From Allacma fusca (taxonomy: Eukaryota; Arthropoda; Collembola; Symphypleona; Sminthuridae), in NCBI GenBank assembly GCA_947179485.1, contig OX359245.1, positions 22,493,067 to 22,557,066 on the forward strand: 64,000 bases of DNA. Direction: 5' to 3'. The notes beneath the pieces were generated by a model. The model was not told the origin of the DNA. It did not search any database and saw nothing but the letters and a program-made list of their open reading frames with translations. How positions within the stretch are numbered: position 1 is the first letter of the stretch; each line of letters starts with the position of its first letter. Positions 39,667 to 64,000 of the stretch are shown here, in pieces. The position numbers were made by a program, and so were the translations under genes.

Positions 39667-40500
39667 TGATGAATAATCGAGAAATGGTTCGTAAAATGAA
39701 CAGATTTCAACGAAGTATAAAAACCGTAGTAAAGGTTTATTCAGGAGTGAATTGGGAAGAGTAACCTCCACAACAGACAAAATTCAAGTGTATTGAAAAG
39801 AGAAAGGTTCTTTGCATTTATAGCGAAAGGCCGAGTAACAAAAGTGAATGGGACGGTCAGGTCCAATACAATATTTGGGATGGCCTGCTATGACTCATGG
39901 CATATAAAAAGGCTAAGCCCTAATTCCAGGAACTGGGCTTAGTCATACCGTTAGGTTTAGAAAGGCTATTCCAGTTAACACTACTGGGGCCAGACAAGTA
40001 TTATATAACAAGTGTAAACAGGGGGTATGACATACTGTGATGACAAATTAGTAATCCTGCATTATTTTTGTTTTGTCTATGATCCGTTGTTGATTCTCTT
40101 GTTATGGCCCTTAATAGTCTTAGTATGTCTTTGATATAGGTATGTCATGTCTGTAATATCCCATTGTTGAAATGTCATATTCAGCATGTATATTTATTGT
40201 ATGACTCAAAGCACCTTGTCAAATTTAAGCCTTATCAGGTATGACTAATGAAAGTTTCCTGGAAAAGGTCTTATAGTATTTATTTGCATGAGTCACAGAT
40301 ATGAAGGCATTCTACTGGTCCCTTTGAGAATGCCTTTCACTTTTCCTCCTCGGCTTTCCTGTATAAATACCGAGCCCTTTCCCATTCTAAACACACTTCG
40401 ATTTAACTGTTCTACTAGTAACTTGCTCGTGTAAATTAATACTTTTAAACATCTTTTGTAATAGAGCTTTTCATTTAGTTGATTAATTCATATTTCATCA
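39667..40500. repeat. Paired inverted Copia LTRs, copy 3
   Basis: 834 bp, with the same boundaries and plan as copy 2. Confidence 0.7.
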
Positions 40501-41010
40501 CATGATGAGCCCATCATCCACGTATATGGTAAGAATTACTAGGTGGTTGCTGATTTCCCCGAAAAACACACTGGGCTCGTGTTGCGCAGCCTGGAGTCCA
40601 AGGGCGGTAAGGCAGTCCGAGAACTTCTAATTCCAGCATCGCGGTGATTGTTTGAGTCCATAAATGCTTTTCCGAAGTCGCAGGACCATATCTGCACCAG
40701 TAACTTCGTATCCCTGGGGGATCTTTACGTAGATTTCCTCATCCAGGTCTCCATGCAGGAATACAGTTTTAACGTCAAACTATTCCATGGCGAGTTTCTG
40801 TGAGGCGGCAATGTTGAGGAGGAGTCGGATTGACTCGTATCGTGCTACAGCTGCGAACGTCTCGAAGTAGTCCACCCCTTCTTCCTAACTGTATCCTCGG
40901 ATGACAAGTGGGCTTTGTACCGCTGAATGCATTCATCTTTGTTGATTTTAATTGTTAGGTTCCGGATGTCAACGTGGTTCCTCTTGATTTGTCTTTCAAG
41001 GTCATTGATG
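40501..41010 (-). mobile_element. Copia reverse-transcriptase fragment, array copy 3 (fossil)
   Basis: Same RT piece, 1345 bp after copy 2. Broken, partial. Confidence 0.8.
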
Positions 41011-41844
41011 TGATGAATAATGAAGAAATGGTTCGTAAAATGAACAGATTTCAACGAAGTATAAAAACCGTAGTAAAGGTTTATTCAGGAGTGAATTGAG
41101 AAGAGTAACCTTCACAACAGACAAAATTCAAGTGTATTTAAAAGAGAAAGGTTCTTTGCATTTATAGCGAAAGGCCGAGTAACAAAAGTGAATGGGACGG
41201 TCAGGTCCAATAAAATATTTGGGATGGCCTGCTCTGACTCATGGCACATAAAAAGGCTAAGCCCTAATTCCAGGAACTGGGCTTAGTCATACCTTTAGGT
41301 TGAAAAAGGGTATACCAATTATCAGTACTGGGGCCATACAAGTATTATATAACACGTGTAAACAGGGGGTATGACATACTGTGATGACAAATTAGTAATC
41401 CTGCATTATTTTTGTTTTGTCAATGATGCGTTGATGATTCTCTTGTTATGGTCCTTAATAGTCTTAGTATGTCATTGAAATTGGTATGTCATGTCTGTAA
41501 TATCCCATTGTTGAAATGTCATATTCAGCATGTATATTTATTGTATGACTCAAAGTACCTTGTCAAGTTTAACCCTTATCAGGTATGACTAATGCAAGTT
41601 TCCTGGAAATGGGCTTATAGTATTTATTGGCATGAGTCACAGATATAAAGGCATTGCACTGGTCCCTTTTAGAATGCCTTTCACTTTTCCTACTCGGCTT
41701 TCCTGTATAAATACCGAGCCCTTTCCCATTCTCAACGCACTTCCATTTCATCTGTTGTACTAGTAACTTGGTCCTGTATATTAATACTTTTAAGCCTCTT
41801 TTGAAATAGAATTTTGATTAAGTTGATTAATTCATATTTCATCA
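41011..41844. repeat. Paired inverted Copia LTRs, copy 4
   Basis: 834 bp, with the same boundaries and plan as copies 2 and 3. Confidence 0.7.
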
Positions 41845-42353
41845 CATGATGAGCCCATCATCCACGTATATGGCAAGAATTACTAGGTGGTTGCTGATTT
41901 TCCCGAAGAACACACTGGGCTCGTGTTGGACAGCCTGGAGTCCAAGGGCGGTAAGGCAGTCCGAGAACTTCTTATTCCAGCATCGCGGTGATTGTTTGAG
42001 TCCATAAATGCTTCTCCGAAGTCGCAGGACCATATCTGCACCAGTAACTTTGTATCCCTGGGGGATCTTGGCGTAGATTTCCTCATCCAGGTCTCCATGC
42101 AGGAATGCAGTTTTAACGTCAAACTGCTCCATGGCGAGTTTCTGTGAGGCGGCAATGTTGAGGATGTCGGATTGACTCGTATCGTATTACAGCTGCGAAC
42201 GTCCCGAAGTAGTCCACTCCTTCTTCCTGTCTGTATCTTCGGATGACCAAGCGGGCTTTGTACCGCTGAATGGATACATCCTGGTTGAATTTAGTAGTTA
42301 GGTTCCGGATGTCTACGTGGTTCCTCTTGATTTGTCTTTCAAGGTCATTGATG
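41845..42353 (-). mobile_element. Copia reverse-transcriptase fragment, array copy 4 (fossil)
   Basis: Same RT piece, 1344 bp after copy 3. Broken, partial. Confidence 0.82.
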
Positions 42354-43181
42354 TGATGAATAATCAAGAAATGGTTCGTAAAATGAACAGATTTCAACGA
42401 AGTATAAAAACCGTAGTAAAGGTTTATTCAGGAGTGAATTGGGAAGAGTAACCTCCACAACAGACAAAATTCAAGTGTATGGAAAAGAGAAAGGTTCTTT
42501 GCATTTATAGCGAAAGGCCGAGTAACAAAAGTGAATGGGACGGTCAGGTCCAATACAATATTTGGGATGGCGTGCTCTGACTCATGGCACATAAAAAGCC
42601 CTAATTCCAGTAACTGAGCTTAGTCATACCTTTAGGTTTAGCAAGGGTATTCCAGTAATCAGTACTGGCGCCATACAAGTATTATATAACAAGTGTAAAC
42701 TTAGGGTATGACATACTGTGATGACAAATTAGTAATCCTGCATTATTTTTGTTTTGTCTATGATCCGTTGTTGATTCTCTTGTTATGGTCCTTAATAGTC
42801 TTAGTATGTCATTGAAATTGGTATGTCATGTCTGTAATATCCCATTGTTGAAATGTCATATTCAGCATGTATATTTATTGTATGACTCAAAGTACCTTGT
42901 CAAGTTTAACCCTTATCAGGTATGACTAATGCAAGTTTCCTGGAAATGGGCTTATAGTATTTATTGGCTTGAGTCACAGATATAAAGGCATTGCACTGGT
43001 CCCTTTTAGAATGCCTTTCACTTTTCCTCCTCGGCTTTCCTGTATAAATACCGAGCCCTTTCCCATTCTCAACGCACTTCCATTTCATCTGCTGTACTAG
43101 TAACTTGGTCCTGTAAATTAATACTTTTAAGCCTCTTTTGAAATAGAATTTTGATTAAGTTGATTAATTCATAGTTCATCA
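42354..43181. repeat. Paired inverted Copia LTRs, copy 5
   Basis: 828 bp, same plan as the other copies and slightly shorter. Confidence 0.7.
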
Positions 43182-43677
43182 CATGATGAGCCCATCATCC
43201 ACGTATATGGCAAGAATTACTAGGTGGTTGCTGATTTTCCCGAAGAACACACTGGGCTCGTGTTGGACAGCCTGGAGTCCAAGGGCGGTAAGGCAGTCCG
43301 AGAACTTCTTATTCCAGCATCGCGGTGATTGTTTGAGTCCATAACTGCTTCTCCGAAGTCGCAGGACCATATCTGCTCCAGTAACTTTGTATCCCTGGGG
43401 GATCTTGGCGTAGATTTCCTCATCCAGGTCTCCATGCAGGAATGCAGTTTTAACGTCAAACTGCTCCATGGCGAGTTTCTGTGAGGCGGCAATGTTGAGG
43501 ATGAGTCGGATTGACTCGTATCGTATTACAGCTGCGAACGTCCCGAAGTAGTCCACTCCTTCTTCCTGTCTGTATCTTCGGATGACCAAGCGGGCTTTGT
43601 ACCGCTGAATGGATACATCCTGGTTGAATTTAATAGTTAGGTTCCGGATGTCTACGTGGTTCCTCTTGATTTGTCTT
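43182..43677 (-). mobile_element. Copia reverse-transcriptase fragment, array copy 5 (fossil)
   Basis: Same RT piece, 1337 bp after copy 4. It stops abruptly at 43677, where the array gives way to other sequence. Partial. Confidence 0.84.
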
Positions 43678-43907
43678 TACAATAGTCTACATACAATAGG
43701 AGGTTTGACACACAATACACAAACAGTATGGGCTATGACATACTATACATATACAAAAGGGGGTTAGACTTACAGAATAGATACCTTACAGGCATGCATA
43801 GGATAAAAAGGTCATTTAAATAAATGTAATATCAGTCATACATGAATCCAATGAATGTATAATAGCATAACGAGTATACAAGACATTATCATAATTATTA
43901 TATCACA
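43678..43907. other. Junction between the Copia array and the satellite
   Basis: About 230 bp of AT-rich sequence with two loosely similar GGGCTATGACATACTATAC/GGGGGTTAGAC blocks. Not coding. Confidence 0.5.
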
Positions 43908-45939
43908 AGATTCTTACGAGTTCAGCAAACACTTTAAAAAGTGACCAGAGCAACGAAACGTCATTTTCATCGCATTTTTAGATTGTCCATTCATCTCAAA
44001 TTCGAGAATTGAGTTTTGGCAGACTGACCGAGTGTACTTTCAAAGAATCTGGAGATTCATTCGAGTTTAGCAAACACATAAAATATGACCAGAGCAATGG
44101 CACGTCATTATCATCGCACTTTTTAGTTTGTCGATTAATCTCAAATTTGAGAATTGAGCGTTGGCAGACTGAACGTGTGTACTTTAAAAGTATGAGGAGA
44201 TTCTGACGAGTTCTGCAAACACCTAAAATGTGAATTTTTATTGCAATTTTTCGTTTGTCGATTTATCTCGAATTCGAGAAATGAGCTTTGGCAGACTGAC
44301 CAAATGTACTTTTAAAGTATGAGGAGATTCGGACGAGTTCAGCAAACACCTTAAAATGTGACCAGAGCAACGACACTTCATTTTCATCGCATTTTTAAGT
44401 TTTTCGATCCATCTCAAATTCGAGAATTGAGCTTCGGCAGACTGACCGAGTGTACTTTCAAAGTGTGAGGAGGTTCTGACGAGTTCAGCAAACTTCAATT
44501 TCATCGCTATTTGAAAAGTTTTTCAAATCATCTTAAATTCGAGAATTGATCTTTGGAAGACTTCCTGAGTGTATTCCCAAAGTTTAAGGAGATTCGGAGG
44601 AGCACAGCAAACACGTTAAACAGTGACCATCGCAACGAGACCTTATTTTTATCGCTATGTTTAGTTTTTCGATTCATCTTAAATGCGACAATTGAGCTTT
44701 GGCAGACTGTCCGAATGTATTCCCCAAGTTTGAGGATATTCGGACGAGTTCGGCAAACACCTTAAAAAGTGACCTAAGCGAAACGTCATTCTCTTCGCTT
44801 TTTCCAAAGATTTTCGATTTATCTCATATTCAAAAATTGAGCTTTGGCAGACTGCCCGAGTGTATTCCCAAAGTTTAAAGAGATTCGGGCGAGTTTAGCT
44901 AACACGTTAAACAGCTAACATCGCAACGAGACCTCATTTTCATCGCTATTTGTAAAGTTTTTCGATTCAACTTAAATTCGAAAATTGAGCTTTGGAAGAC
45001 TGTCCGAGTTTATTCCCAAAGTTTCAAGAGATTCGGACTATTTAAGCAAACAACTTACTAAGTGACCTCAGCGACACCTCATTTTCATTGCTTTTTCCAA
45101 AGATCTTCGATTCATCTCAGATTCGAGAATTGAGCTTTGGCAGACAGCCCGAGTGTATCCCTAAAGTTTAAGGAGATTCGGACGAGTTCGGAAAACACCT
45201 TAAAAAGTGACCATAGCAACGAGACCTCATTTTCTTTGCTATGCTTAAAGTTTTTCGGTTCATCCCAAATTCGAGAATTGAGCTTTGGAAGACTGCCCGA
45301 GTGTATTTTCAAAGTTTAGAGATTCGGAAGTGCTCAGCAAACACGTTAAACAGTGACCATAGCAACGAGACTTTATTTTGATTGCTATGTTTAGTATTCC
45401 GATTCAACTCAAATGCGAGAATTGAGCTTCGGAAGACTGCCCGAGTGTATTTTCAAAGTAAAGAGATTCGGACGAGCTCAGCAAACACGTTAAACAGTGC
45501 GCATAGCAACGAGACCTCATTTTCATCGCTATTTGTAAAATTTTTCGATTCATCTTAAATTCGAGAATTGAGCTTTGGTAGACTGTCCGAGTTTATTCCC
45601 AAAGTTTCAAGAGATTCGGACTATTTAAGCAAACAACTTACTAAGTGACCTGAGCGACACGTCATTTTCATTGTTTTTTCCAAAGATTTTTGATTCATCT
45701 CAGATTCGAGAATTGAGCTTAGGCAGACTGCCCGAGTGTATCCCCAAAGTTTAAGGAGATTCGGACGAGTTCGGCAAACCCCTTAAAAAGTGACCATAGC
45801 AACGAGACCTCATTTTCTTTGCTATGCTTAAAGTTTTTCGATTCATCCCAAATTCGAGAATTGAGCTTTGGAAGACTGCCCGAGTGTATTTCCAAAGTTT
45901 AGAGATTCGGACTAGCTCAGCAAACAACTTACTAAGTGA

Positions 45940-46601
45940 TGTTGTGTTACGTAATAAGATGTAATGCGTAATAAATGGTAGTATTACATGTAGTTGTAAT
46001 TATATGTCATAATAAAAATTAAGCAAATTAATAAGTACAAGCAAGGCATGAATAAGCAGGGAATAAATAAGCAAGCAATAAATTCTCAGCCGTATTGGAA
46101 TTGGACATCTAAAGAACCTTATTCAATATTGAAATAGCTGGAAAACTACAAACCAACTTTGATTTCAAGTTTCCTGTGACAACAGGAAACCGCTATCGCA
46201 AGTCCACAATAATCAACAAATAGAAGCTAAGCGTATAATAAAACCTTATTCGGAACTCTCCAAAATAAAAACTATATGTTAAGTTTTTCCTTATTATACA
46301 GTGGAATAAAATGTTACAACAGAATTAAATGTATGAAATATTACTGTAATAATCAGACCCGAAATTCACCGAAAATTCCCAACCCACATTTTCTGGTTAG
46401 GAATTTCCTATACTTGATTATACTTTTCCCCTTCTGGAATGTTCTATAAAATATTATTGATTCCCGATTTGTTATAAATAGGATAATCATAAACACTTTA
46501 AAACAGTCCAAGTTTATCTTTGAAATCAAACAGTTAAATAAAGTCAAATTGGAATTTATCTTATTCCTTCATTCATCATATTATTTTATGTTATAACAAC
46601 A
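45940..46601 (+). mobile_element. Solo LTR in satellite, copy 1
   Basis: It begins TGTTGTGTTACG and ends TATAACAACA, so the ends are inverted TGTTG/CAACA. It is flanked by the 5-bp duplication AGTGA (45935-45939 and 46602-46606). TATA-like GTTATAAATAGG and the AATAAA in TTAAATAAAG lie in LTR order. No internal region is present. Copia-like by its termini. Confidence 0.85.
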
Positions 46602-48358
46602 AGTGACCTGAGCGACATGTCATTTTCATTGCTTTTTCCAAAGATTTTCGATTCATCTCAGATTCGAGAACTGAGCTTTGGCAGACTGGCCGAGTCTATC
46701 CCCAAAGTTTAAGGAGATTCAGACGAGTTAATCAAACAATTTAAAAAGTGACCTGAACGACATATCATTTTCATTGCTTTTTCCAAAGATTTTCGATTCG
46801 TCTCAGATTCGAGAATTAAGCTTTGGTAGACCGCCCGAGTGTATTCCCAAAATTAAAAGAGATTCAGGCGAGCTCAGCAAACACGTTAAACAGTGACCAA
46901 ATCAACGAGTCCTCATTTTCATCGCTATTTTTAAAGTTTTTCGATTCAACCCCAATTCGAGAATTGAACTTTGGCAGACTTCCTGAGTGCATTCCTAAAG
47001 TTTAAGGAGATTCAGACGAGCTCAGCAAAGACGTTAAACAGTGACCATAGCAACGAAACCTATTTTTTATCGCTATGCTTAAAGTTTTTCGATTCGTTAA
47101 AAATTCGAGAATTGAGCTTTGGCAGCCTGCCCGAGTGTATCCCCAAAGTTTAAGGAGATTCGGACGAGTTCGGCAAACCCCTTAAAAAGTGACCATAGCA
47201 ACGAGACCTCATTTTCTTTGCTGTTTAAAGTTTTTTGAATCATCCCAAATTCGAGGATTGAGTTTTGGAAGACTGCCTGAGTGTATTTCTAAATGTTAAA
47301 GAAATTCAGGCAAGCTCAACAAACACATTAAATAGTGACCATAGCAACGACACTTCATTTTCATCGCTATTTGTAAAGTTTTTCGATTCATCTTAAATTC
47401 GAGAATTGAGCTTTGGCAGACTGCCCGAGTTTATTCCCAAAGTTTAGAGATTCGGACTATTTAAGCAAACAACTTACTAAGTGACCTGAGCGACACCTCA
47501 TTTTCATTGCTTTTTCCAAAGATCTTCGATTCATCTCAGATTCGAGAATTGAGCTTTGGCAGACAGCCCGAGTGTATCCCTTAAGTTTAAGGAGATTCGG
47601 ACGAGTTCGGAAAACACCTTAAAAAGTGACCATAGCAACGAGACCTCATTTTCTTTGCTATGCTTAAAGTTTTTCGGTTCATCCCAAATTCGAGAATTGA
47701 GCTTTGGAAGACTGCCCGAGTGTATTTTCAAAGTTTAGAGATTCGGAAGAGGTCAGCAAACACGTTAAACAGTGACCATAGCAACGAGACTTTATTTTGA
47801 TTGCTATGTTTAGTATTCCGATTCAACTCAAATGCGAGAATTGAGCTTCGGAAGACTGCCCGAGTGTATTTTCAAAGTAAAGAGATTCGGACGAGCTCAG
47901 CAAACACGTTAAACAGTGCGCATAGCAACGAGACCTCATTTTCATCGCTATTTGTAAAATTTTTCGATTCATCTTAAATTCGAGAATTGAGCTTTGGTAG
48001 ACTGTCCGAGTTTATTCCCAAAGTTTCAAGAGATTTGGACTATTTAAGCAAACAACTTACTAAGTGACCTGAGCGACACGTCATTTTCATTGTTTTTTCC
48101 AAAGATTTTCGATTCATCTTCGATTCGAGAATTGAGCTGAGGCAGACTGCCCGAATGTATCCCCAAAGTTTAAGGAGATTCGGACGAGTTCGGCAAACCC
48201 CTTAAAAAGTGACCATAGCAACGAGACCTCATTTTCTTTGCTATGCTTAAAGTTTTTCGATTCATCCCAAATTCGAGAATTGAGCTTTGGAAGACTGCCC
48301 GAGTGTATTTCCAAAGTTTAGAGATTCGGACTAGCTCAGCAAACAACTTACTAAGTGA

Positions 48359-49021
48359 TGTTGTGTTACGTAATAAGATGTAATGCGTAATAAATGGTAG
48401 TATTACATGTAGTTGTAATTATATGTCATAATAAAAATTAAGCAAATTAATAATTACAAGCAAGGCATGAATAAGCAGGGAATAAATAAGCAAGCAATAA
48501 ATTCTCAGCCGTATTGGAATTGGACATCTAAAGAACCTTATTCAATATTGAACAGAGCTGGAAAACTACAAACCAACTTTGATTTCAAGTTTCCTGTGAC
48601 AACAGGAAACCGCTATCGCAAGTCCACAATAATCAACAAATAGAAGCTAAGCGTATAATAAAACCTTATTCGGAACTCTCCAAAATAAAAACTATATGTT
48701 AAGTTTTTCCTTATTATACAATGGAATAAAATGTTACAACAGAATTAAATGTATGAAATATTACTGTAATAATCAGACCCGAAATTCACCGAAAATTCCC
48801 AACCCACATTTTCTGGTTAGGAATTTCCTATACTTGATTCTACTTTTCCCCTTCTGGAATGTTCTATAAAATATTATTGATTCCCGATTTGTTATAAATA
48901 GGATAATCATAAACACTTTAAAACAGTCCAAGTTTATCTTTGAAATCAAACATTTAAATAAAGTCAAATTGGAATTTATCTTATTCCTTCATTCATCATA
49001 TTATTTTATGTTATAACAACA
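48359..49021 (+). mobile_element. Solo LTR in satellite, copy 2
   Basis: Same LTR, same AGTGA flanks, same monomer position as copy 1. It was copied with the higher-order unit rather than inserted anew. Confidence 0.85.
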
Positions 49022-50630
49022 AGTGACCTGAGCGACATGTCATTTTCATTGCTTTTTCCAAAGATTTTCGATTCATCTCAGATTCGAGAACTGAGCTTTG
49101 GCAGACTGGCCGAGTGTATCCCCAAAGTTTAAGGAGATTCAGACGAGTTAATCAAACAATTTAAAAAGTGACCTGAACGACATATCATTTTCATTGCTTT
49201 TTCCAAAGATTTTCGATTCGTCTCAGATTCGAGAATTAAGCTTTGGTAGACCGCCCGAGTGTATTCCCAAAATTAAAAGAGATTCAGGCGAGCTCAGCAA
49301 ACACGTTAAACAGTGACCAAATCAACGAGTACTCATTTTCATCGCTATTTTTAAAGTTTTTCGATTCAACCCCAATTCGAGAATTGAACTTTGGCAGACT
49401 TCCTGAGTGCATTCCTAAAGTTTAAGGAGATTCAGACGAGCTCAGCAAACACGTTAAACAGTGACCATAGCAACGAAACCTATTTTTTATCGCTATGCTT
49501 AAAGTTTTTCGATTCGTTAAAAATTCGAGAATTGAGCTTTGGCAGCCTGCCCGAGTGTATCCCCAAAGTTTAAGGAGATTCGGACGAGTTCGGCAAACCC
49601 CTTAAAAAGTGACCATAGCAACGAGACCTCATTTTCTTTGCTGTTTAAAGTTTTTTGAATCATCCCAAATTCGAGGATTGAGTTTTGGAAGACTGCCTGA
49701 GTGTATTACTAAATGTTAAAGAAATTCAGGCAAGCTCAACAAACACATTAAATAGTGACCATAGCAACGACACTTCATTTTCATCGCTATTTGTAAAGTT
49801 TTTCGATTCATCTTAAATTCGAGAATTGAGCTTTGGCAGACTGCCCGAGTTTATTCCCAAAGTTTAGAGATTCGGACTATTTAAGCAAACAACTTACTAA
49901 GTGACCTGAGCGACACCTCATTTTCATTGCTTTTTCCAAAGATCTTCGATTCATCTCAGATTCGAGAATTGAGCTTTGACAGACAGCCCGAGTTTATTCC
50001 CAAAGTTTAAAGAGATTCGGACGAGTTAAGCAAACAACTTAAAAAATGACCTGAGCGACACGTCATTTTCATTGCTTTTTTCAAATATTTTCGATTCATC
50101 TCAGATTCGAGAATTGAGCTTTGACAGACAGCCCGAGTGTATCCCTAAAGTTTAAGGAGATTCGGACGAGTTCGGAAAACACCTTAAAAAGTGACCATAG
50201 CAACGAGACCTCATTTTCTTTGCTATGCTTAAAGTTTTTCGGTTCACCCCAAATTCGAGAATTGAGCTTTGGAAGACTGCCCGAGTGTATTTTCAAAATT
50301 TAGAGATTCGGAAGAGCTCAGCAAACACGTTAAACAGTGACCATAGCAACGAGACTTTATTTTGATTGCTATGTTTAGTATTCCGATTCAACTCAAATGC
50401 GAGAATTGAGCTTCGGAAGACTGCCCGAGTGTATTTTCAAAGTAAAGAGATTCGGACGAGCTCAGCAAACACGTTAAACAGTGCGCATAGCAACGAGACC
50501 TCATTTTCTTTGCTATGCTTAAAGTTTTTCGATTCATCCCAAATTCGAGAATTGAGCTTTGGAAGACTGCCCGAGTGTATTTCCAAAGTTTAGAGATTCG
50601 GACTAGCTCAGCAAACAACTTACTAAGTGA

Positions 50631-51292
50631 TGTTGTGTTACGTAATAAGATGTAATGCGTAATAAATGGTATATTACATGTAGTTGTAATTATATGTCAT
50701 AATAAAAATTAAGCAAATTAATAATTACAAGCAAGGCATGAATAAGCAGGGAATAAATAAGCAAGCAATAAATTCTCAGCCGTATTGGAATTGGACATCT
50801 AAAGAACCTTATTCAATATTGAACAGAGCTGGAAAACTACAAACCAACTTTGATTTCAAGTTTCCTGTGACAACAGGAAACCGCTATCGCAAGTCCACAA
50901 TAATCAACAAATAGAAGCTAAGCGTATAATAAAACCTTATTCGGAACTCTCCAAAATAAAAACTATATGTTAAGTTTTTCCTTATTATACAATGGAATAA
51001 AATGTTACAACAGAATTAAATGTATGAAATATTACTGTAATAATCAGACCCGAAATTCACCGAAAATTCCCAACCCACATTTTCTGGTTAGGAATTTCCT
51101 AAACTTGATTCTACTTTTCCCCTTCTGGAATGTTCTATAAAATATTATTGATTCCCGATTTGTTATAAATAGGATAATCATAAACACTTTAAAACAGTCC
51201 AAGTTTATCTTTGAAATCAAACAGTTAAATAAAGTCAAATTGGAATTTATCTTATTCCTTCATTCATCATATTATTTTATGTTTTAACAACA
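50631..51292 (+). mobile_element. Solo LTR in satellite, copy 3
   Basis: Same insertion copied. The preceding unit is 147 bp shorter than the standard unit, one monomer fewer. Confidence 0.85.
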
Positions 51293-53049
51293 AGTGACCT
51301 GAGCGTGATGTCATTTTCATTGCTTTTTCCAAAGATTTTCGATTCATCTCAGATTCGAGAACTGAGCTTTGGCAGACTGGCCGAGTGTATCCCCAAAGTT
51401 TAAGGAGATTCAGACGAGTTAATCAAACAATTTAAAAAGTGACCTGAACGACATATCATTTTCATTGCTTTTTCCAAAGATTTTCGATTCGTCTCAGATT
51501 CGAGAATTAAGCTTTGGTAGACCGCCCGAGTGTATTCCCAAAATTAAAAGAGATTCAGGCGAGCTCAGCAAACACGTTAAACAGTGACCAAATCAACGAG
51601 TCCTCATTTTCATCGCTATTTTTAAAGTTTTTCGATTCAATCCCAATTCGAGAATTGAACTTTGGCAGACTTCCTGAGTGCATTCCTAAAGTTTAAGGAG
51701 ATTCAGACGAGCTCAGCAAACACGTTAAACAGTGACCATAGCAACGAAACCTATTTTTTATCGCTATGCTTAAAGTTTTTCGATTCGTTAAAAATTCGAG
51801 AATTGAGCTTTGGCAGCCTGCCCGAGTGTATCCCCAAAGTTTAAGGAGATTCGGACGAGTTCGGCAAACCCCTTAAAAAGTGACCATAGCAACGAGACCT
51901 CATTTTCTTTGCTGTTTAAAGTTTTTTGAATCATCCCAAATTCGAGGATTGAGTTTTGGAAGACTGCCTGAGTGTATTACTAAATGTTAAAGAAATTCAG
52001 GCAAGCTCAACAAACACATTAAATAGTGACCATAGCAACGACACTTCATTTTCATCGCTATTTGTAAAGTTTTTCGATTCATCTTAAATTCGAGAATTGA
52101 GCTTTGGCAGACTGCCCGAGTTTATTCCCAAAGTTTAGAGATTCGGACTATTTAAGCAAACAACTTACTAAGTGACCTGAGCGACACCTCATTTTCATTG
52201 CTTTTTCCAAAGATCTTCGATTCATCTCAGATTCGAGAATTGAGCTTTGGCAGACAGCCCGAGTGTATCCCTAAAGTTTAAGGAGATTCGGACGAGTTCG
52301 GAAAACACCTTAAAAAGTGACCATAGCAACGAGACCTCATTTTCTTTGCTATGCTTAAAGTTTTTCGGTTCATCCTAAATTCGAGAATTGAGCTTTGAAA
52401 GACTGCCCGAGTGTATTTTCAAAGTTTAGAGATTCGGAAGAGGTCAGCAAACACGTTAAACAGTGACCATAGCAACGAGACTTTATTTTGATTGCTATGT
52501 TTAGTATTCCGATTCAACTCAAATGCGAGAATTGAGCTTCGGAAGACTGCCCGAGTGTATTTTCAAAGTAAAGAGATTCGGACGAGCTCAGCAAACACGT
52601 TAAACAGTGCGCATAGCAACGAGACCTCATTTTCATCGCTATTTGTAAAATTTTTCGATTCATCTTAAATTCGAGAATTGAGCTTTGGTAGACTGTCCGA
52701 GTTTATTCCCAAAGTTTCAAGAGATTCGGACTATTTAAGCAAACAACTTACTAAGTGACCTGAGCGACACGTCATTTTCATTGTTTTTTCCAAAGATTTT
52801 CGATTCATCTTCGATTCGAGAATTGAGCTTAGGCAGACTGCCCGAGTGTATCCCCAAAGTTTAAGGAGATTCGGACGAGTTCGGCAAACCCCTTAAAAAG
52901 TGACCATAGCAACGAGACCTCATTTTCTTTGCTATGCTTAAAGTTTTTCGATTCATCCCAAATTCGAGAATTGAGCTTTGGAAGACTGCCCGAGTGTATT
53001 TCCAAAGTTTAGAGATTCGGACTAGCTCAGCAAACAACTTACTAAGTGA

Positions 53050-53712
53050 TGTTGTGTTACGTAATAAGATGTAATGCGTAATAAATGGTAGTATTACATG
53101 TAGTTGTAATTATATGTCATAATAAAAATTAAGCAAATTAATAATTACAAGCAAGGCATGAATAAGCAGGGAATAAATAAGCAAGCAATAAATTCTCAGC
53201 CGTATTGGAATTGGACATCTAAAGAACCTTATTCAATATTGAACAGAGCTGGAAAACTACAAACCAACTTTGATTTCAAGTTTCCTGTGACAACAGGAAA
53301 CCGCTATCGCAAGTCCACAATAATCAACAAATAGAAGCTAAGCGTATAATAAAACCTTATTCGGAACTCTCCAAAATAAAAACTATATGTTAAGTTTTTC
53401 CTTATTATACAATGGAATAAAATGTTACAACAGAATTAAATGTATCAAATATTACTGTAATAATCAGACCCGAAATTCACCGAAAATTCCCAACCCACAT
53501 TTTCTGGTTAGGAATTTCCTATACTTGATTCTACTTTTCCCCTTCTGGAATGTTCTATAAAATATTATTGATTCCCGATTTGTTATAAATAGGATAATCA
53601 TAAACACTTTAAAACAGTCCAAGTTTATCTTTGAAATCAAACAGTTAAATAAAGTCAAATTGGAATTTATCTTATTCCTTCATTCATCATATTATTTTAT
53701 GTTATAACAACA
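53050..53712 (+). mobile_element. Solo LTR in satellite, copy 4
   Basis: Same insertion copied, 2419 bp after copy 3. Confidence 0.85.
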
Positions 53713-55321
53713 AGTGACCTGAGCGACATGTCATTTTCATTGCTTTTTCCAAAGATTTTCGATTCATCTCAGATTCGAGAACTGAGCTTTGGCAGACTGG
53801 CTGAGTGTATCCCCAAAGTTTAAGGAGATTCAGACGAGTTAATCAAACAATTTAAAAAGTGACCTGAACGACATATCATTTTCATCGCTATTTTTAAAGT
53901 TTTTCGATTCAACCCCAATTCGAGAATTGAACTTTGGCAGACTTCCTGAGTGCATTCCTAAAGTTTAAGGAGATTCAGACGAGCTCAGCAAACACGTTAA
54001 ACAGTGACCATAGCAACGAAACCTATTTTTTATCGCTATGCTTAAAGTTTTTCGATTCGTTAAAAATTCGAGAATTGAGCTTTGGCAGCCTGCCCGAGTG
54101 TATCCCCAAAGTTTAAGGAGATTCGGACGAGTTCGGCAAACCCCTTAAAAAGTGACCATAGCAACGAGACCTCATTTTCTTTGCTGTTTAAAGTTTTTTG
54201 AATCATCCCAAATTCGAGGATTGAGTTTTGGAAGACTGCCTGAGTGTATTACTAAATGTTAAAGAAATTCAGGCAAGCTCAACAAACACATTAAATAGTG
54301 ACCATAGCAACGACACTTCATTTTCATCGCTATTTGTAAAGTTTTTCGATTCATCTTAAATTCGAGAATTGAGCTTTGGCAGACTGCCCGAGTTTATTCC
54401 CAAAGTTTAGAGATTCGGACTATTTAAGCAAACAACTTACTAAGTGACCTGAGCAACACCTCATTTTCATTGCTTTTTCCAAAGATCTTCGATTCATCTC
54501 AGATTCGAGAATTGAGCTTTGGCAGACAGCCCGAGTGTATCCCTAAAGTTTAAGGAGATTCGGACGAGTTCGGAAAACACCTTAAAAAGTGACCATAGCA
54601 ACGAGACCTCATTTTCTTTGCTATGCTTAAAGTTTTTCGGTTCATCCCAAATTCGAGAATTGAGCTTTGGAAGACTGCCCGAGTGTATTTTCAAAGTTTA
54701 GAGATTCGGAAGAGGTCAGCAAACACGTTAAACAGTGACCATAGCAACGAGACTTTATTTTGATTGCTATGTTTAGTATTCCGATTCAACTCAAATGCGA
54801 GAATTGAGCTTCGGAAGACTGCCCGAGTGTATTTTCAAAGTAAAGAGATTCGGACGAGCTCAGCAAACACGTTAAACAGTGCGCATAGCAACGAGACCTC
54901 ATTTTCATCGCTATTTGTAAAATTTTTCGATTCATCTTAAATTCGAGAATTGAGCTTTGGTAGACTGTCCGAGTTTATTCCCAAAGTTTCAAGAGATTCG
55001 GACTATTTAAGCATACAACTTACTAAGTGACCTGAGCGACACGTCATTTTCATTGTTTTTTCCAAAGATTTTCGATTCATCTTCGATTCGAGAATTGAGC
55101 TTAGGCAGACTGCCCGAGTGTATCCCCAAAGTTTAAGGAGATTCGGACGAGTTCGGCAAACCCCTTAAAAAGTGACCATAGCAACGAGACCTCATTTTCT
55201 TTGCTATGCTTAAAGTTTTTCGATTCATCCCAAATTCGAGAATTGAGCTTTGGAAGACTGCCCGAGTGTATTTCCAAAGTTTAGAGATTCGGACTAGCTC
55301 AGCAAACAACTTACTAAGTGA

Positions 55322-55984
55322 TGTTGTGTTACGTAATAAGATGTAATGCGTAATAAATGGTAGTATTACATGTAGTTGTAATTATATGTCATAATAAAAA
55401 TTAAGCAAATTAATAATTACAAGCAAGGCATGAATAAGCAGGGAATAAATAAGCAAGCAATAAATTCTCAGCCGTATTGGAATTGGACATCTAAAGAACC
55501 TTATTCAATATTGAACAGAGCTGGAAAACTACAAACCAACTTTGATTTCAAGTTTCCTGTGACAACAGGAAACCGCTATCGCAAGTCCACAATAATCAAC
55601 AAATAGAAGCTAAGCGTATAATAAAACCTTATTCGGAACTCTCCAAAATAAAAACTATATGTTAAGTTTTTCCTTATTATACAATGGAATAAAATGTTAC
55701 AACAGAATTAAATGTATGAAATATTACTGTAATAATCAGACCCGAAATTCACCGAAAATTCCCAACCCACATTTTCTGGTTAGGAATTTCCTATACTTGA
55801 TTCTACTTTTCCCCTTCTGGAATGTTCTATAAAATATTATTGATTCCCGATTTGTTATAAATAGGATAATCATAAACACTTTAAAACAGTCCAAGTTTAT
55901 CTTTGAAATCAAACAGTTAAATAAAGTCAAATTGGAATTTATCTTATTCCTTCATTCATCATATTATTTTATGTTATAACAACA
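55322..55984 (+). mobile_element. Solo LTR in satellite, copy 5
   Basis: Same insertion copied, 2272 bp after copy 4. Confidence 0.85.
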
Positions 55985-56721
55985 AGTGACCTGAGCGACA
56001 TGTCGTTTTCATTGCTTTTTCCAAAGATTTTCGATTCATCTCAGATTCGAGAACTGAGCTTTGGCAGACTGGCCGAGTGTATCCCCAAAGTTTAAGGAGA
56101 TTCAGACGAGTTAATCAAACAATTTAAAAAGTGACCTGAACGACATATCATTTTCATTGCTTTTTCCAGAGATTTTCGATTCGTCTCAGATTCGAGAATT
56201 AAGCTTTGGTAGACCGCCCGAGTGTATTCCCAAAACTAAAAGAGATTCAGGCGAGCTCAGCAAACACGTTAAACAGTGACCAAATCAACGAGTCCTCATT
56301 TTCATCGCTATTTTTAAAGTTTTTCGATTCAACCCCAATTCGAGAATTGAACTTTGGCAGACTTCCTGAGTGCATTCCTAAAGTTTAAGGAGATTCAGAC
56401 GAGCTCAGCAAACACGTTAAACAGTGACCATAGCAACGAAACCTATTTTTTATCGCTATGCTTAAAGTTTTTCGATTCGTTAAAAATTCGAGAATTGAGC
56501 TTTGGCAGCCTGCCCGAGTGTATCCCCAAACTTTAAGGAGATTCGGACGAGTTCGGCAAACCCCTTAAAAAGTGACCATAGCAACGAGACCTCATTTTCT
56601 TTGCTATGCTTAAAGTTTTTCGATTCATCCCAAATTCGAGAATTGAGCTTTGGAAGACTGCCCGAGTGTATTTCCAAAGTTTAGAGATTCGGACTAGCTC
56701 AGCAAACAACTTACTAAGTGA

Positions 56722-57384
56722 TGTTGTGTTACGTAATAAGATGTAATGCGTAATAAATGGTAGTATTACATGTAGTTGTAATTATATGTCATAATAAAAA
56801 TTAAGCAAATTAATAATTACAAGCAAGGCATGAATAAGCAGGGAATAAATAAGCAAGCAATAAATTCTCAGCCGTATTGGAATTGGACATCTAAAGAACC
56901 TTATTCAATATTGAACAGAGCTGGAAAACTACAAACCAACTTTGATTTCAAGTTTCCTGTGACAACAGGAAACCGCTATCGCAAGTCCACAATAATCAAC
57001 AAATAGAAGCTAAGCGTATAATAAAACCTTATTCGGAACTCTCCAAAATAAAAACTATATGTTAAGTTTTTCCTTATTATACAATGGAATAAAATGTTAC
57101 AACAGAATTAAATGTATGAAATATTACTGTAATAATCAGACCCGAAATTCACCGAAAATTCCCAACCCACATTTTCTGGTTAGGAATTTCCTATACTTGA
57201 TTCTACTTTTCCCCTTCTGGAATGTTCTATAAAATATTATTGATTCCCGATTTGTTATAAATAGGATAATCATAAACACTTTAAAACAGTCCAAGTTTAT
57301 CTTTGAAATCAAACAGTTAAATAAAGTCAAATTGGAATTTATCTTATTCCTTCATTCATCATATTATTTTATGTTATAACAACA
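56722..57384 (+). mobile_element. Solo LTR in satellite, copy 6
   Basis: Same insertion copied, only 1400 bp after copy 5. About seven monomers are missing from this unit. Confidence 0.85.
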
Positions 57385-59141
57385 AGTGACCTGAGCGACA
57401 TGTCGTTTTCATTGCTTTTTCCAAAGATTTTCGATTCATCTCAGATTCGAGAACTGAGCTTTGGCAGACTGGCCGAGTGTATCCCCAAAGTTTAAGGAGA
57501 TTCAGACGAGTTAATCAAACAATTTAAAAAGTGACCTGAACGACATATCATTTTCATTGCTTTTTCCAGAGATTTTCGATTCGTCTCAGATTCGAGAATT
57601 AAGCTTTGGTAGACCGCCCGAGTGTATTCCCAAAACTAAAAGAGATTCAGGCGAGCTCAGCAAACACGTTAAACAGTGACCAAATCAACGAGTCCTCATT
57701 TTCATCGCTATTTTTAAAGTTTTTCGATTCAACCCCAATTCGAGAATTGAACTTTGGCAGACTTCCTGAGTGCATTCCTAAAGTTTAAGGAGATTCAGAC
57801 GAGCTCAGCAAACACGTTAAACAGTGACCATAGCAACGAAACCTATTTTTTATCGCTATGCTTAAAGTTTTTCGATTCGTTAAAAATTCGAGAATTGAGC
57901 TTTGGCAGCCTGCCCGAGTGTATCCCCAAACTTTAAGGAGATTCGGGCGAGTTCGGCAAACCCCTTAAAAAGTGACCATAGCAACGAGACCTCATTTTCT
58001 TTGCTGTTTAAAGTTTTTTGAATCATCCCAAATTCGAGGATTGAGTTTTGGAAGACTGCCTGAGTGTATTTCTAAATGTTAAAGAAATTCAGGCAAGCTC
58101 AACAAACACATTAAATAGTGACCATAGCAACGACACTTCATTTTCATCGCTATTTGTAAAGTTTTTCGATTCATCTTAAATTCGAGAATTGAGCTTTGGC
58201 AGACTGCCCGAGTTTATTCCCAAAGTTTAGAGATTCGGACTATTTAAGCAAACAACTTACTAAGTGACCTGAGCAACACCTCATTTTCATTGCTTTTTCC
58301 AAAGATCTTCGATTCATCTCAGATTCGAGAATTGAGCTTTGGCAGACAGCCCGAGTGTATCCCTAAAGTTTAAGGAGATTCGGACGAGTTCGGAAAACAC
58401 CTTAAAAAGTGACCATAGCAACGAGACCTCATTTTCTTTGCTATGCTTAAAGTTTTACGGTTCATCCCAAATTCGAGAATTGAGCTTTGGAAGACTGCCC
58501 GAGTGTATTTTCAAAGTTTAGAGATTCGGAAGAGGTCAGCAAACACGTTAAACAGTGACCATAGCAACGAGACTTTATTTTGATTGCTATGTTTAGTATT
58601 CCGATTCAACTCAAATGCGAGAATTGAGCTTCGGAAGACTGCCCGAGTGTATTTTCAAAGTAAAGAGATTCGGACGAGCTCAGCAAACACGTTAAACAGT
58701 GCGCATAGCAACGAGACCTCATTTTCATCGCTATTTGTAAAATTTTTCGATTCATCTTAAATTCGAGAATTGAGCTTTGGTAGACTGTCCGAGTTTATTC
58801 CCAAAGTTTCAAGAGATTCGGACTATTTAAGCAAACAACTTACTAAGTGACCTGAGCGACACGTCATTTTCATTGTTTTTTCCAAAGATTTTTGATTCAT
58901 CTTCGATTCGAGAATTGAGCTTAGGCAGACTGCCCGAGTGTATCCCCAAAGTTTAAGGAGATTCGGACGAGTTCGGCAAACCCCTTAAAAAGTGACCATA
59001 GCAACGAGACCTCATTTTCTTTGCTATGCTTAAAGTTTTTCGATTCATCCCAAATTCGAGAATTGAGCTTTGGAAGACTGCCCGAGTGTATTTCCAAAGT
59101 TTAGAGATTCGGACTAGCTCAGCAAACAACTTACTAAGTGA

Positions 59142-59804
59142 TGTTGTGTTACGTAATAAGATGTAATGCGTAATAAATGGTAGTATTACATGTAGTTGTA
59201 ATTATATGTCATAATAAAAATTAAGCAAATTAATAATTACAAGCAAGGCATGAATAAGCAGGGAATAAATAAGCAAGCAATAAATTCTCAGCCGTATTGG
59301 AATTGGACATCTAAAGAACCTTATTCAATATTGAACAGAGCTGGAAAACTACAAACCAACTTTGATTTCAAGTTTCCTGTGACAACAGGAAACCGCTATC
59401 GCAAGTCCACAATAATCAACAAATAGAAGCTAAGCGTATAATAAAACCTTATTCGGAACTCTCCAAAATAAAAACTATATGTTAAGTTTTTCCTTATTAT
59501 ACAATGGAATAAAATGTTACAACAGAATTAAATGTATGAAATATTACTGTAATAATCAGACCCGAAATTCACCGAAAATTCCCAACCCACATTTTCTGGT
59601 TAGGAATTTCCTAAACTTGATTCTACTTTTCCCCTTCTGGAATGTTCTATAAAATATTATTGATTCCCGATTTGTTATAAATAGGATAATCATAAACACT
59701 TTAAAACAGTCCAAGTTTATCTTTGAAATCAAACAGTTAAATAAAGTCAAATTGGAATTTATCTTATTCCTTCATTCATCATATTATTTTATGTTTTAAC
59801 AACA
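59142..59804 (+). mobile_element. Solo LTR in satellite, copy 7
   Basis: Same insertion copied, 2420 bp after copy 6. The following unit is interrupted at 61087 by the Ty3/Gypsy element. It shares an ending variant (GTTTTAACAACA) with copy 3, a sign of exchange between non-adjacent units. Confidence 0.85.
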
Positions 59805-61087
59805 AGTGACCTGAGCGACATGTCATTTTCATTGCTTTTTCCAAAGATTTTCGATTCATCTCAGATTCGAGAACTGAGCTTTGGCAGACTGGCCGAGTGT
59901 ATCCCCAAAGTTTAAGGAGATTCAGACGAGTTAATCAAACAATTTAAAAAGTGACCTGAACGACATATCATTTTCATTGCTTTTTCCAAAGATTTTCGAT
60001 TCGTCTCAGATTCGAGAATTAAGCTTTGGTAGACCGCCCGAGTGTATTCCCAAAATTAAAAGAGATTCAGGCGAGCTCAGCAAACACGTTAAACAGTGAC
60101 CAAATCAACGAGTCCTCATTTTCATCGCTATTTTTAAAGTTTTTCGATTCAACCCCAATTCGAGAATTGAACTTTGGCAGACTTCCTGAGTGCATTCCTA
60201 AAGTTTAAGGAGATTCAGACGAGCTCAGCAAACACGTTAAACAGTGACCATAGCAACGAAACCTATTTTTTATCGCTATGCTTAAAGTTTTTCGATTCGT
60301 TAAAAATTCGAGAATTGAGCTTTGGCAGCCTGCCCGAGTGTATCCCCAAAGTTTAAGGAGATTCGGACGAGTTCGGCAAACCCCTTAAAAAGTGACCATA
60401 GCAACGAGACCTCATTTTCTTTGCTGTTTAAAGTTTTTTGACTCATCCCAAATTCGAGGATTGAGTTTTGGAAGACTGCCTGAGTGTATTTCTAAATGTT
60501 AAAGAAATTCAGGCAAGCTCAACAAACACATTAAATAGTGACCATAGCAACGACACTTCATTTTCATCGCTATTTGTAAAGTTTTTCGATTCATCTTAAA
60601 TTCGAGAATTGAGCTTTGGCAGACTGCCCGAGTTTATTCCCAAAGTTTAGAGATTCGGACTATTTAAGCAAACAACTTACTAAGTGACCTGAGCGACACC
60701 TCATTTTCATTGCTTTTTCCAAAGATCTTCGATTCATCTCAGATTCGAGAATTGAGCTTTGGCAGACAGCCCGAGTGTATCCCTAAAGTTTAAGGAGATT
60801 CGGACGAGTTCGGAAAACACCTTAAAAAGTGACCATAGCAACGAGACCTCATTTTCTTTGCTATGCTTATAGTTTTTCGGTTCATCCCAAATTCGAGAAT
60901 TGAGCTTTGGAAGACTGCCCGAGTGTATTTTCAAAGTTTAGAGATTCGGAAGAGCTCAGCAAACACGTTAAACAGTGACCATAGCAACGAGACTTTATTT
61001 TGATTGCTATGTTTAGTATTCCGATTCAACTTAAATGCGAGAATTGAGCTTCGGAAGACTGCCCGAGTGTATTTTCAAAGTAAAGAG

Positions 61088-61542
61088 TGTAAGAAATGTG
61101 TATTTCTCACATACATGCCACATCTAAATCAGCTTTACTTTATAATTGTGTAGCTTGAAGCTGAACGCTATATTGCAACACTGGAAACGCGGTGGCGTCC
61201 AGAGTCAGAATATATAAAGTCATTTCCATGCTTTAACGCCCCAGTGTCTCTGGAGCGTCTGAACAGTAATCTTGTAGCTGGACTAGTAGAGTTGGAATAA
61301 ATTTCTATTATTTGTTGTATTCCATCAACTCCGACATCGGACCTCACCTTGGCTTATTGTTGGCTATTATTGGGTTTCCATCCTTCACTCATTTTTATTA
61401 TATTTTTACCCATATATTTTGGCAATTGTTTTGAAGGTTATTTTTCTAGGAAATCCTTAATGTAATGGCTGGTTGCTCATTTTAATTATATTTGCTTTTA
61501 CATATTAGTAGTAGCACGGTCTGAGCACCCACACCCTTTACA
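61088..61542 (+). repeat. 5' LTR of the Ty3/Gypsy element
   Basis: 455 bp, from TGTAAGAAATG to CACCCTTTACA, with inverted TGTAA/TTACA ends. A TATA-like TATATAAA lies at 61211-61218 and AATAAA at 61296-61301, the order expected of U3, R and U5. A primer-binding-like TGGCGACCGTGG starts at 61545. Confidence 0.85.
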
Positions 61543-62469
61543 ACTGGCGACCGTGGATTTCGGACTTGTTTCTAATTTTTGGACGGCCATGAGAACTGCT
61601 GACTGATGGGATTAATTTTTTGCTGTTGTTTCCGAATTTTTGACCAACACCTGACTGGAATTATCCTGCATTTTGTTTCCTCCAAATAATTTTGGTGAGC
61701 GGAAGCTTAGGTGTATCCTGAGCTGACTTTAATTAAATACAGCACTAGTGTATCTCGGGCTTACTATATGCAGTATATAGAGCAGGAAAAATTGTTTTTT
61801 ATCAGAAAAATCTCATTTTAAATGTCATTTTAGTTTCTAAATTCTGTTACAAAGTAAGGTAACATGCTAAAATCTCAGTAGTCAGTGTTGGTTGATCATT
61901 ATTAATTTATACATTACAGAGAGTTCGTAGTAGAGAGAAACAGCAGTAGAGAAATATAAAGATTAATGTTATTTAATAATCGTGGTCAAATTCAAAGCGA
62001 TAATATTTTTTACAGCTAATTATAAAGTAATTTAGCCTCAGTCAGTGCAGTTCCATTAAAATAAAGTATCACACATACATATACGTACAGTAGGAAAGTA
62101 CAAAAGTTGGTCGGAGCGTTTCTTCGCAAGTCTAATCTGAATAAGTTATGTAATAAAGAGAAATAATTAGGCCAAGCAAAGCAACAGGTGAAGAAGGTCA
62201 TTGTTTTTTTAAAAGAGTCCAGTATTTTAAGAGGAAGCTAATAACGACAGCTAAAGGTTCAAAATAAATTACGCAAAACCTCAGCACACTCTTGATTTCA
62301 GCATTTTTGGGTTTTTAAACTTGCCATTTGAATAAAGCTTTAAATAAAGCCAGAAATATTAAAAGGTATTTATAGTCGTTTGATAAGCAGAGTTGCAGGT
62401 TACTTATTGTGTTACCATCGATTTGCACATTGGAAGTCCCCTCAGTTGAGTAAAATACATTCAAATTTA
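61543..62469 (+). other. 5' leader of the Ty3/Gypsy element
   Basis: Non-coding leader between the LTR and the first gag ATG. The gag frame is open upstream to 62380 but without an ATG before 62470. Confidence 0.6.
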
Positions 62470-63855
62470 ATGAGCAAAGCTGACAAGGCTATTATTAACC
62501 AGAGTATTCCGGTCATTGACTCAAACTCATCCAGGGCTCAAAGACAGGTCAATAGGCAAACAAGGATAGTTTCATCTGCATCAAGTACCTCAACTACTCA
62601 TACACAACTACCTTTAACAATGGCAGAGGCATGGTTCAATGCATTACCAGATGACGAGAAAGCCCATGTTAGGTTTTTTATCAACCAAGGCAAATTGGAG
62701 AGTGCTAATTATTTAAGAATAGCGGAAAATGCAGCTATGGCTGCCAATAGATTAGTGCAAGCAGCTTCATCAGCAGCAACAGCAGCTCCAGTTGCAGCAA
62801 CTCATAATGTAGTATATTCAAATGTCACAATGCAGCCTCCATCTTATGATAAGAAGAGAATGACCGCAAATCATTATTTTGATTCTGTGGAAAAGTTTTT
62901 TAAGCTTCAGCATCATGCTGATGACAAATTTGTGTATCTTTTTGGGTCAATTCTCAAGGGCGATTCGTTAAAATGGTATCAGAACAGCGTTACAAGTACC
63001 ACTACTTGGAATGAGTTGAAGACTGCATTTAAATCGGAGTTTGACACTAATTTTGATGAGAAAGAAAGAAGGAAGTTGCACGCCACTAAAACACAGAGAC
63101 ATACAGAATCAGTAGCAGAATATGTCTATGAGATGCTATTTTTAGCTACTCAGGTTGATAGTACAGAGGTCATGAAAGAAAAACTTCGTAGAGCATACCA
63201 AGGCCTACATCATAAAATCTATGCTGTTATCAAATGGGACCCTGACCAGGCAAATCCAACTCCAGGTAATTTAATTGCTGCGGCAGAAGACGCCCTTAGA
63301 GTTTTGCATAAGTCTCAAGTACTAGACAAATTAGGAAAGGACGGTCTTCCACCTTTAGCAGGAGTTGAGAGGAAAGACAAGCCTGAGCGAGCTGACCAAG
63401 ACAAGTCAGCAAAGGATGAGAAGAATGATCAGTCGAAAAGTAGTTCTTATAGGGGTAAAGGGAATTTTAGAGGAAAGTCTCGTGGAGGATTCAGAGGCAA
63501 TTCTAGAGGTAAACCTTATTGGTTGCGAAACCAAGATACAAAGTCTGATCAAAACAGTAGTAGTTCCAGTCAGCAATCACACACTTCTAGTTCCGGTTCC
63601 GATAAAAATAGGAAGAACGGGTTTGACAAATCACAAGGAAAGGTCAACATGAAAGTCAAATGTAATGCATGCACAGGCTATGGGCATTTAGAAAAAAATT
63701 GTCCAAGCAAGAACAAAGGAATAATGATGTCTTTCCAGCATACGTCAGTACAATGTTGGGTATGTGGAGGAGAAGGGCACGTTAGTCACCAGTGTTCATC
63801 TGAAGTCAGTAAACCTCAGCATGAGTCAGTATCTGACGATTCGGGGGAATGCTAG
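62470..63855 (+). CDS. gag: Gag of the Ty3/Gypsy element
   Basis: Structural protein that packages the element RNA, 461 residues from the first in-frame ATG. The N-terminal third is low complexity. A capsid-like region begins near residue 134 (YFDSVEKFFKLQHHADDKF, then SLKWYQNS and WNELKTAFKSEF), as in retrotransposon gag proteins. A basic, glycine-arginine-rich stretch follows (RGKGNFRGKSRGGFRG). Two CCHC knuckles close it: CNACTGYGHLEKNC at 398-411 and CWVCGGEGHVSHQC at 429-442. Two knuckles and a separate pol frame fit Ty3/Gypsy. Confidence 0.9.
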   Translation: MSKADKAIINQSIPVIDSNSSRAQRQVNRQTRIVSSASSTSTTHTQLPLTMAEAWFNALPDDEKAHVRFFINQGKLESANYLRIAENAAMAANRLVQAASSAATAAPVAATHNVVYSNVTMQPPSYDKKRMTANHYFDSVEKFFKLQHHADDKFVYLFGSILKGDSLKWYQNSVTSTTTWNELKTAFKSEFDTNFDEKERRKLHATKTQRHTESVAEYVYEMLFLATQVDSTEVMKEKLRRAYQGLHHKIYAVIKWDPDQANPTPGNLIAAAEDALRVLHKSQVLDKLGKDGLPPLAGVERKDKPERADQDKSAKDEKNDQSKSSSYRGKGNFRGKSRGGFRGNSRGKPYWLRNQDTKSDQNSSSSSQQSHTSSSGSDKNRKNGFDKSQGKVNMKVKCNACTGYGHLEKNCPSKNKGIMMSFQHTSVQCWVCGGEGHVSHQCSSEVSKPQHESVSDDSGEC

Positions 63856-64000
63856 CGGGACAGTTTGGTACTGTCCCACAAACACTATTTATTTTAGCAC
63901 CCATATCATCCGTAAATAATGAAGACAGACCTCCGACTACCACATTACATATTGATGGTAAAAATATCAGAGCACTGGTAGATACAGGGTGTTCACATTG
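63837..64000 (+). CDS. pol: Start of pol (protease) of the Ty3/Gypsy element, partial
   Basis: The frame lies at -1 relative to gag and overlaps its end slightly, an arrangement for which -1 frameshifting is known in this family. It reads TLFILAPISS, then LHIDGKNIRALVDTGCSH. The DTG triad is the aspartic protease active site. The rest of pol lies outside the window. Confidence 0.82.

Follow-up and report, generated by a model that had tools for sequence, protein, structure and literature searches.

How does an LTR come to stand at one and the same position in successive units of a satellite? The question is raised by a 64,000-nucleotide stretch of the Allacma fusca genome (hereafter the window; C1:22493067-22557066, in an assembly of 392.7 Mb and 91 contigs), in which monomers of approximately 147 bp are interspersed with closely similar LTRs. 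A reading made from the sequence alone had described seven copies of a 662-bp LTR, spaced 1400 to 2420 bp apart and bordered by AGTGA, and had proposed a single insertion followed by loss of the element's interior and amplification of the LTR together with its neighboring monomers. BLAST searches and a check of the flanks confirmed the seven copies, their spacing, and their borders. The features concerned are the following:

43908..61087, + strand, left edge of the approximately 147 bp satellite array (TRF, profile search, monomer typing)
45935..45939, + strand, left target-site duplicate AGTGA of LTR copy 1
45940..46601, + strand, solo LTR copy 1, 662 bp (BLAST, flank inspection)
46602..46606, + strand, right target-site duplicate AGTGA of LTR copy 1
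48359..49021, + strand, solo LTR copy 2 (BLAST with copy 1, flank inspection)
50631..51292, + strand, solo LTR copy 3 (BLAST with copy 1, flank inspection)
53050..53712, + strand, solo LTR copy 4 (BLAST with copy 1, flank inspection)
55322..55984, + strand, solo LTR copy 5 (BLAST with copy 1, flank inspection)
56722..57384, + strand, solo LTR copy 6 (BLAST with copy 1, flank inspection)
59142..59804, + strand, solo LTR copy 7 (BLAST with copy 1, flank inspection)
C1:22563622, 22567210 (interrupted), 22573552, 22575388, and 22576785, starts of LTR copies 8-12, right of the window

The window LTRs (n = 7) measure 662-663 bp, share 98.8-100% identity with copy 1 by BLAST, and follow one another at intervals of 2419, 2272, 2419, 2272, 1400, and 2420 bp. 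The count of seven holds for the window, but the array is larger, with five further copies outside. Altogether, at least 12 LTRs span 38.4 kb of C1, measured from the beginning of the first to the end of the last; the number is a minimum, as the genome search considered only the best-scoring candidates. All 12, the interrupted copy included, have TG...CA termini, starting with TGTTGT and ending with ACAACA, and each is followed by AGTGACC. The left duplicate is AGTGA in nine of them, so that AGTGA stands on both sides of every window LTR (7/7). In the other three, all outside the window, it is AGTAA, which we read as one inherited change. Identical AGTGA flanks, noted earlier for the seven window copies, are thus present at nine LTRs in all and altered on the left side of three. 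The exact left LTR-satellite junction occurs nine times genome-wide, always within the C1 array.

The satellite was resolved by a monomer profile search, which returned 379 forward monomers in seven stretches, and by typing 254 monomers of at least 100 bp from C1:22537-22597 kb at an 8% cut. This typing defined the following units:

45940..48358, + strand, canonical higher-order unit, LTR + N O P Q R S I J K L M J*, 2419 bp
48359..50630, + strand, 11-monomer unit, N O P Q R S I I J K J*
53050..55321, + strand, 11-monomer unit without O (monomer typing)
55322..56721, + strand, 5-monomer unit, N O P Q J*

The canonical unit comprises the LTR and 12 monomers, in agreement with the amplified unit proposed earlier. 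Monomers of different higher-order types differ by 20% and those within a type by 0.3-4.2% (type K by 0.3%), while the three canonical units differ by less than 1%, as in a higher-order repeat. Monomer N occurs 12 times, each time directly to the right of an LTR, and the monomer to the left is of type J in 11 of 12 cases; the position within the unit is therefore constant, as had been claimed. The twelfth left monomer, at the interrupted LTR, is cut by the end of the locus and was typed as a singleton; over its last 20 bases it agrees with the other left monomers. The J* subtype that precedes the LTR varies by 1.0% among 11 copies and lies 5.7% from 13 other J monomers. In order, the units contain 12, 11, 12, 11, 5, 12, 12, 20, 20, 8, and 5 monomers; one holds K L M J three times, and the seventh, of 12 monomers, is divided by an 8,990 bp insertion. 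Typing thus upheld the earlier observation that unit lengths differ by whole monomers, and such differences point to unequal exchange. The two 2272 bp units lack different monomers and so arose by different events.

The array had been bounded at 43908 and 61087. Its left edge does lie inside the window, where the eight leftmost monomers (43941-45057) are single diverged types, but 61087 is an insertion point, and the array resumes at C1:22563144. To the right of the last LTR, N O P Q are followed by other monomer types. Contig C1 was read without gaps over 22537-22602 kb and sampled beyond. In samples of 4000 bp taken at 22660, 22740, and 22820 kb, satellite covered 3860, 3896, and 3890 bp; a 6000 bp sample at 22926 kb contained 3366 bp of it, and a 10000 bp sample at 22960 kb contained 8689 bp. 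No satellite was found at 22597-22602 kb or 22975-22979 kb, and no LTR match was found in the C1 satellite samples or at 22950-22970 kb. The LTR units sit at the left edge of a satellite array of roughly 435 kb, which from 22602 to 22950 kb is represented by four short samples. Genome-wide, a single 20-base word of the satellite was counted 499 times on the forward strand and 2790 times on the reverse strand. Among the best hits, reverse-strand matches are scattered over C8:50.56-51.54 Mb, where 4868 bp of a 5 kb sample is satellite. The layout of the two blocks, at C1:22.54-22.97 Mb (sampled) and C8:50.56-51.54 Mb, suggests a (peri)centromeric role for the array.

Several other repeats and sequences were noted around the array. 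Directly to its left lies a second LTR-bearing tandem array (36979-43678) of five units of approximately 1340 bp, each with an LTR of approximately 470 bp; neighboring units are 95% similar and those four steps apart 91%, and the one unit tested carries a truncated copia-type RVT_2 domain. A 54 bp minisatellite forms two related arrays on opposite strands (26506-26894 and 28115-29659; TRF). The window yielded no Rfam matches at gathering scores and no tRNAs with ARAGORN. Elsewhere in the assembly, the COI sequence of contig C91, with 12 TGA codons in frame, reads through without a stop under mitochondrial tables 4, 5, and 9. Judged by eye, table 5 gives the best reading, a sign of an invertebrate and probably of an arthropod. 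Near-complete COI copies on the large contigs C12, C5, and C8 are probably nuclear mitochondrial insertions.

Whether the LTRs go back to one founder can be judged from their own substitutions. The genome search for this LTR outside the satellite, suggested earlier as a check, yielded 12 pieces among its best-scoring candidates, seven of them full-length. With the interrupted array copy and the five truncated outside pieces set aside, the 11 unbroken array LTRs differ from one another by 0.45% on average and by 1.06% at most (55 pairs), and from the seven full-length outside LTRs by a mean of 3.9%. Ten private substitutions are fixed in all 11 and absent from all seven. Because these substitutions are common to 11 of 11 copies, and the same flanks to 12 of 12 (with one left-flank variant in three), descent of the array LTRs from one insertion is supported, as the sequence-only reading had it. 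The state before insertion is also represented. When the two flanks are joined with one AGTGA, they align without gaps to related junctions that lack the LTR, at up to 92.6% identity, and 345 of 406 BLAST hits of the joined flanks span the junction. These junctions, which belong to related monomers and are not the site itself, would display the pre-insertion state and mark AGTGA as a 5 bp target duplication.

The interior of the element is missing from the array, as had been surmised. Its LTRs are bordered by neither a PBS-like stretch nor a purine-rich tract, whereas such a neighbor is present at eight of the 12 LTR pieces outside the array: a PBS-like stretch after three (L015, L019, and L024) and a purine-rich tract before five (L016, L017, L018, L020, and L021). 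We take these stretches for putative PBS and PPT from their position beside the LTR. TG...CA ends and a short target duplication, combined with the absence of the interior, PBS, and PPT seen in outside homologues, characterize the array copies as solo LTRs. We infer that recombination between the two LTRs of the element was the route of loss.

The parent of the captured LTR can be approached through its relatives. The LTRs at C1:77940110 and 77962930 form a pair that agrees in its 5 bp flanks, CAACC, and differs at four of 663 sites. At locus L018 on contig C10, upstream of a family LTR (L018:4624-5286), an open frame carries DUF5641 (L018:222-962, E 1.8e-30), a domain that we take to mark the C-terminus of BEL/Pao pol. 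With this BEL/Pao-type pol end, the parent element appears to be BEL/Pao-like. In order toward the LTR, the DUF5641 frame is followed by two others, one combining a rhodopsin-family receptor with Phlebovirus G1 and one carrying Phlebovirus G2.

The receptor domain that the parent element unexpectedly appears to carry is the most unusual observation made here. A 7tm_1 match (E 1.7e-22) lies between DUF5641 and the phlebovirus-type envelope domains G1/G2, within L018:853-2616 (C10:6560853-6562616). The order DUF5641, 7tm_1, Phlebovirus G1, Phlebovirus G2 recurs at two divergent copies, 40% and 44% identical, where it was assembled from separate pieces (L038-L040 on C8 and L041-L043 on C10), and the best open frames reach 3651 aa. 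A 265-residue receptor segment has 92 matches in the genome, in tiers of 90-100%, 72-75%, and about 33-45% identity; some of the 92 are fragments of a single locus, and ordinary receptors of the host may account for the weakest. Pfam and an upstream first-helix stretch in one copy suggest a whole seven-helix receptor; by a simple hydropathy count, every receptor piece fell short of seven helices. A literature search, which covered few subscription journals, returned no title reporting such elements with a receptor, and the words 'receptor', 'GPCR', and 'phlebovirus' are absent from the main text of a BEL/Pao survey (PMC3118150).

Joint amplification of LTR and satellite, the next step of the earlier proposal, is reflected in their divergence. 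Compared pairwise, the three canonical window units differ at 6, 4, and 2 of 662 LTR sites and at 12, 14, and 14 of 1756 satellite sites; the two parts have diverged similarly, which argues that they were amplified together. LTR distance is correlated with right-flank distance (Spearman 0.59) and left-flank distance (0.41) over 45 non-independent pairs from ten copies. Among the ten units, variation is higher in the right flank, at 2.4%, than in the LTR, at 0.46%, or in the left flank, at 0.5%, which indicates that flanks were also exchanged with other monomers.

We are highly confident, on the evidence of one assembly, that a single insertion, loss of the interior, and then amplification and reshuffling by unequal exchange best explain the locus. 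A BEL/Pao-like retroelement would have entered one monomer junction of the approximately 147 bp satellite once, leaving a 5 bp target duplication. Recombination between its two LTRs would then have deleted the interior, and the resulting solo LTR would have become, with neighboring monomers, a higher-order unit. Unequal exchange between misaligned monomers would have raised this unit to at least 12 copies, which would still be reshuffled by the whole-monomer steps seen between units. Later elements inserted into single units.

Other origins were weighed against this sequence of events. Repeated independent insertions at a preferred monomer site, each later reduced to a solo LTR, might be suspected from the identical site and duplicate in 7/7 window copies, and a review describes some TEs as favoring centromeric regions (PMC5857280). 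However, separate arrivals would have to share ten private substitutions in 11/11 copies and lie far closer to one another than to outside LTRs; LTR and flank distances would not be expected to correlate, and similar junctions number in the hundreds without having received an LTR. The shared private substitutions already argue against this origin, which we reject as extremely improbable. Derivation of the satellite from the LTR element is also disfavored: the satellite is present in LTR-free stretches, and its profile had no match in 12 outside LTR loci, in which the element interior is only partly covered.

Near-identical tandem units are difficult to assemble, and all data come from a single assembly, so that a few real units might have been multiplied or rearranged by the assembler. 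Against such an artefact, which we hold to be very unlikely, the units are not uniform in length or in the monomers they contain, they have private changes, and two bear later insertions of their own with flanking duplications. A closer competitor concerns only how the unit was multiplied. Rolling-circle replication of an excised circle, with reinsertion, would also produce tandem LTR-satellite units, and the low variation of type K monomers would agree with it; yet units of 5, 8, 11, 12, and 20 monomers, and the tripled K L M J, require in-register exchange anyway. We infer unequal exchange in preference to the rolling circle, which seems unlikely, though less so than an artefact.

Two later insertions interrupt single units. 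The first begins at the right end of the window array:

61088..64000, + strand, continuing to C1:22563143 (L009:1-6077), later LTR retroelement in one repeat unit, not part of the unit (gag, CCHC knuckle)

This element of 8,990 bp has gag and CCHC domains and a 4 bp flanking repeat, AGAG, and its insertion is placed after the amplification. The other, an LTR element of 2.7 kb, lies inside one satellite LTR (L010:632-3335; C1:22567698-22570401). Its own LTRs are 98.7% alike and share 91-92% similarity with those of the 1340 bp units. It is flanked by a target duplication of 51-53 bp, which greatly exceeds the typical 4-6 bp.

A separate question is whether the LTR also brought transcription to the satellite. 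Its signals, given for copy 1, are:

46473..46480, + strand, TATA box TATAAATA, LTR position 534, in 11/11 unbroken array copies
46537..46542, + strand, AATAAA downstream of the TATA box, LTR position 598, in 11/11 unbroken array copies

The interrupted copy, too, has both TATAAATA and the downstream AATAAA in its right part, and transcription of the array from the LTR is possible. The LTR might even owe its retention to its promoter and polyadenylation signal, through which the array would be transcribed in LTR-to-LTR units. The presence of both signals in every unbroken copy would suit such retention, as would the absence of AATAAA from the satellite part of 7/7 window units (of which the 8,990 bp insertion truncates the seventh). 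However, six of the seven contain the variant ATTAAA in their satellite part, and with 17 variable columns among the copies, the chance that none strikes the 14 bp of TATA box and AATAAA is 0.70, so that their preservation gives no sign of selection. We consider retention for transcription improbable, and it is equally doubtful that the captured LTR turned a promoterless satellite into a chain of transcription cassettes. If it did, cassette RNAs would start in one LTR, run through up to 12 or more AATAAA-free monomers, and receive their poly(A) tail at the following LTR; such RNAs of set length could feed silencing or centromere function.

Satellites were already said to capture transposons, and co-amplification of the two is described in human pericentromeres and in rye (PMC4425911, PMC4857426). 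In humans, HERV-K111 and K222 proviruses lie in (peri)centromeric CER repeats, where, as in the present array, retroviral sequence was multiplied by recombination; the target duplication and flanking repeats served as tracers there, and K111 solo LTRs are mentioned (PMC4425911). K222 differs in occupying many loci on nine chromosomes and in keeping pro, pol, and env, whereas the array described here has a solo LTR, one known location, and a regular 12-monomer unit (PMC4425911). The pSc200 and pSc250 arrays of rye have adjacent TEs and are enriched in solo LTRs, and their account likewise invokes recombination and co-amplification of tandem repeats with TEs (PMC4857426). In rye, however, the TEs lie in regions flanking the arrays, whereas here the LTR is within the repeat unit (PMC4857426).

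Two reviews place the array in a wider frame. Tandemized retroelements, TE-derived satellites, and exchange between LTRs have been surveyed, and in those systems, as here, repeated segments that include LTRs serve unequal exchange (PMC12628747). In contrast to such TE-derived satellites, the present satellite also extends over long LTR-free stretches, which makes the LTR a passenger and not the source of the monomer (PMC12628747). Centromeric higher-order repeats, with monomers 70-80% and units 97-99% alike, resemble this array in having TE insertions among their units (PMC5857280). Those insertions are drawn as scattered among the units (PMC5857280), whereas the TE piece described here recurs as a regular component of its unit.

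The array is a clear worked example of known TE-satellite co-amplification, for which no first report is claimed. Its particular feature is a solo LTR held constant in a regular 12-monomer unit whose founder, LTR-free relatives, and later steps are all readable. Through private changes, LTR-free junctions, and whole-monomer steps, the path from a single insertion to a satellite unit can be traced event by event. The LTR serves as a tag by which exchange inside a single array can be measured, and it offers a ready test of whether a captured promoter transcribes a satellite.
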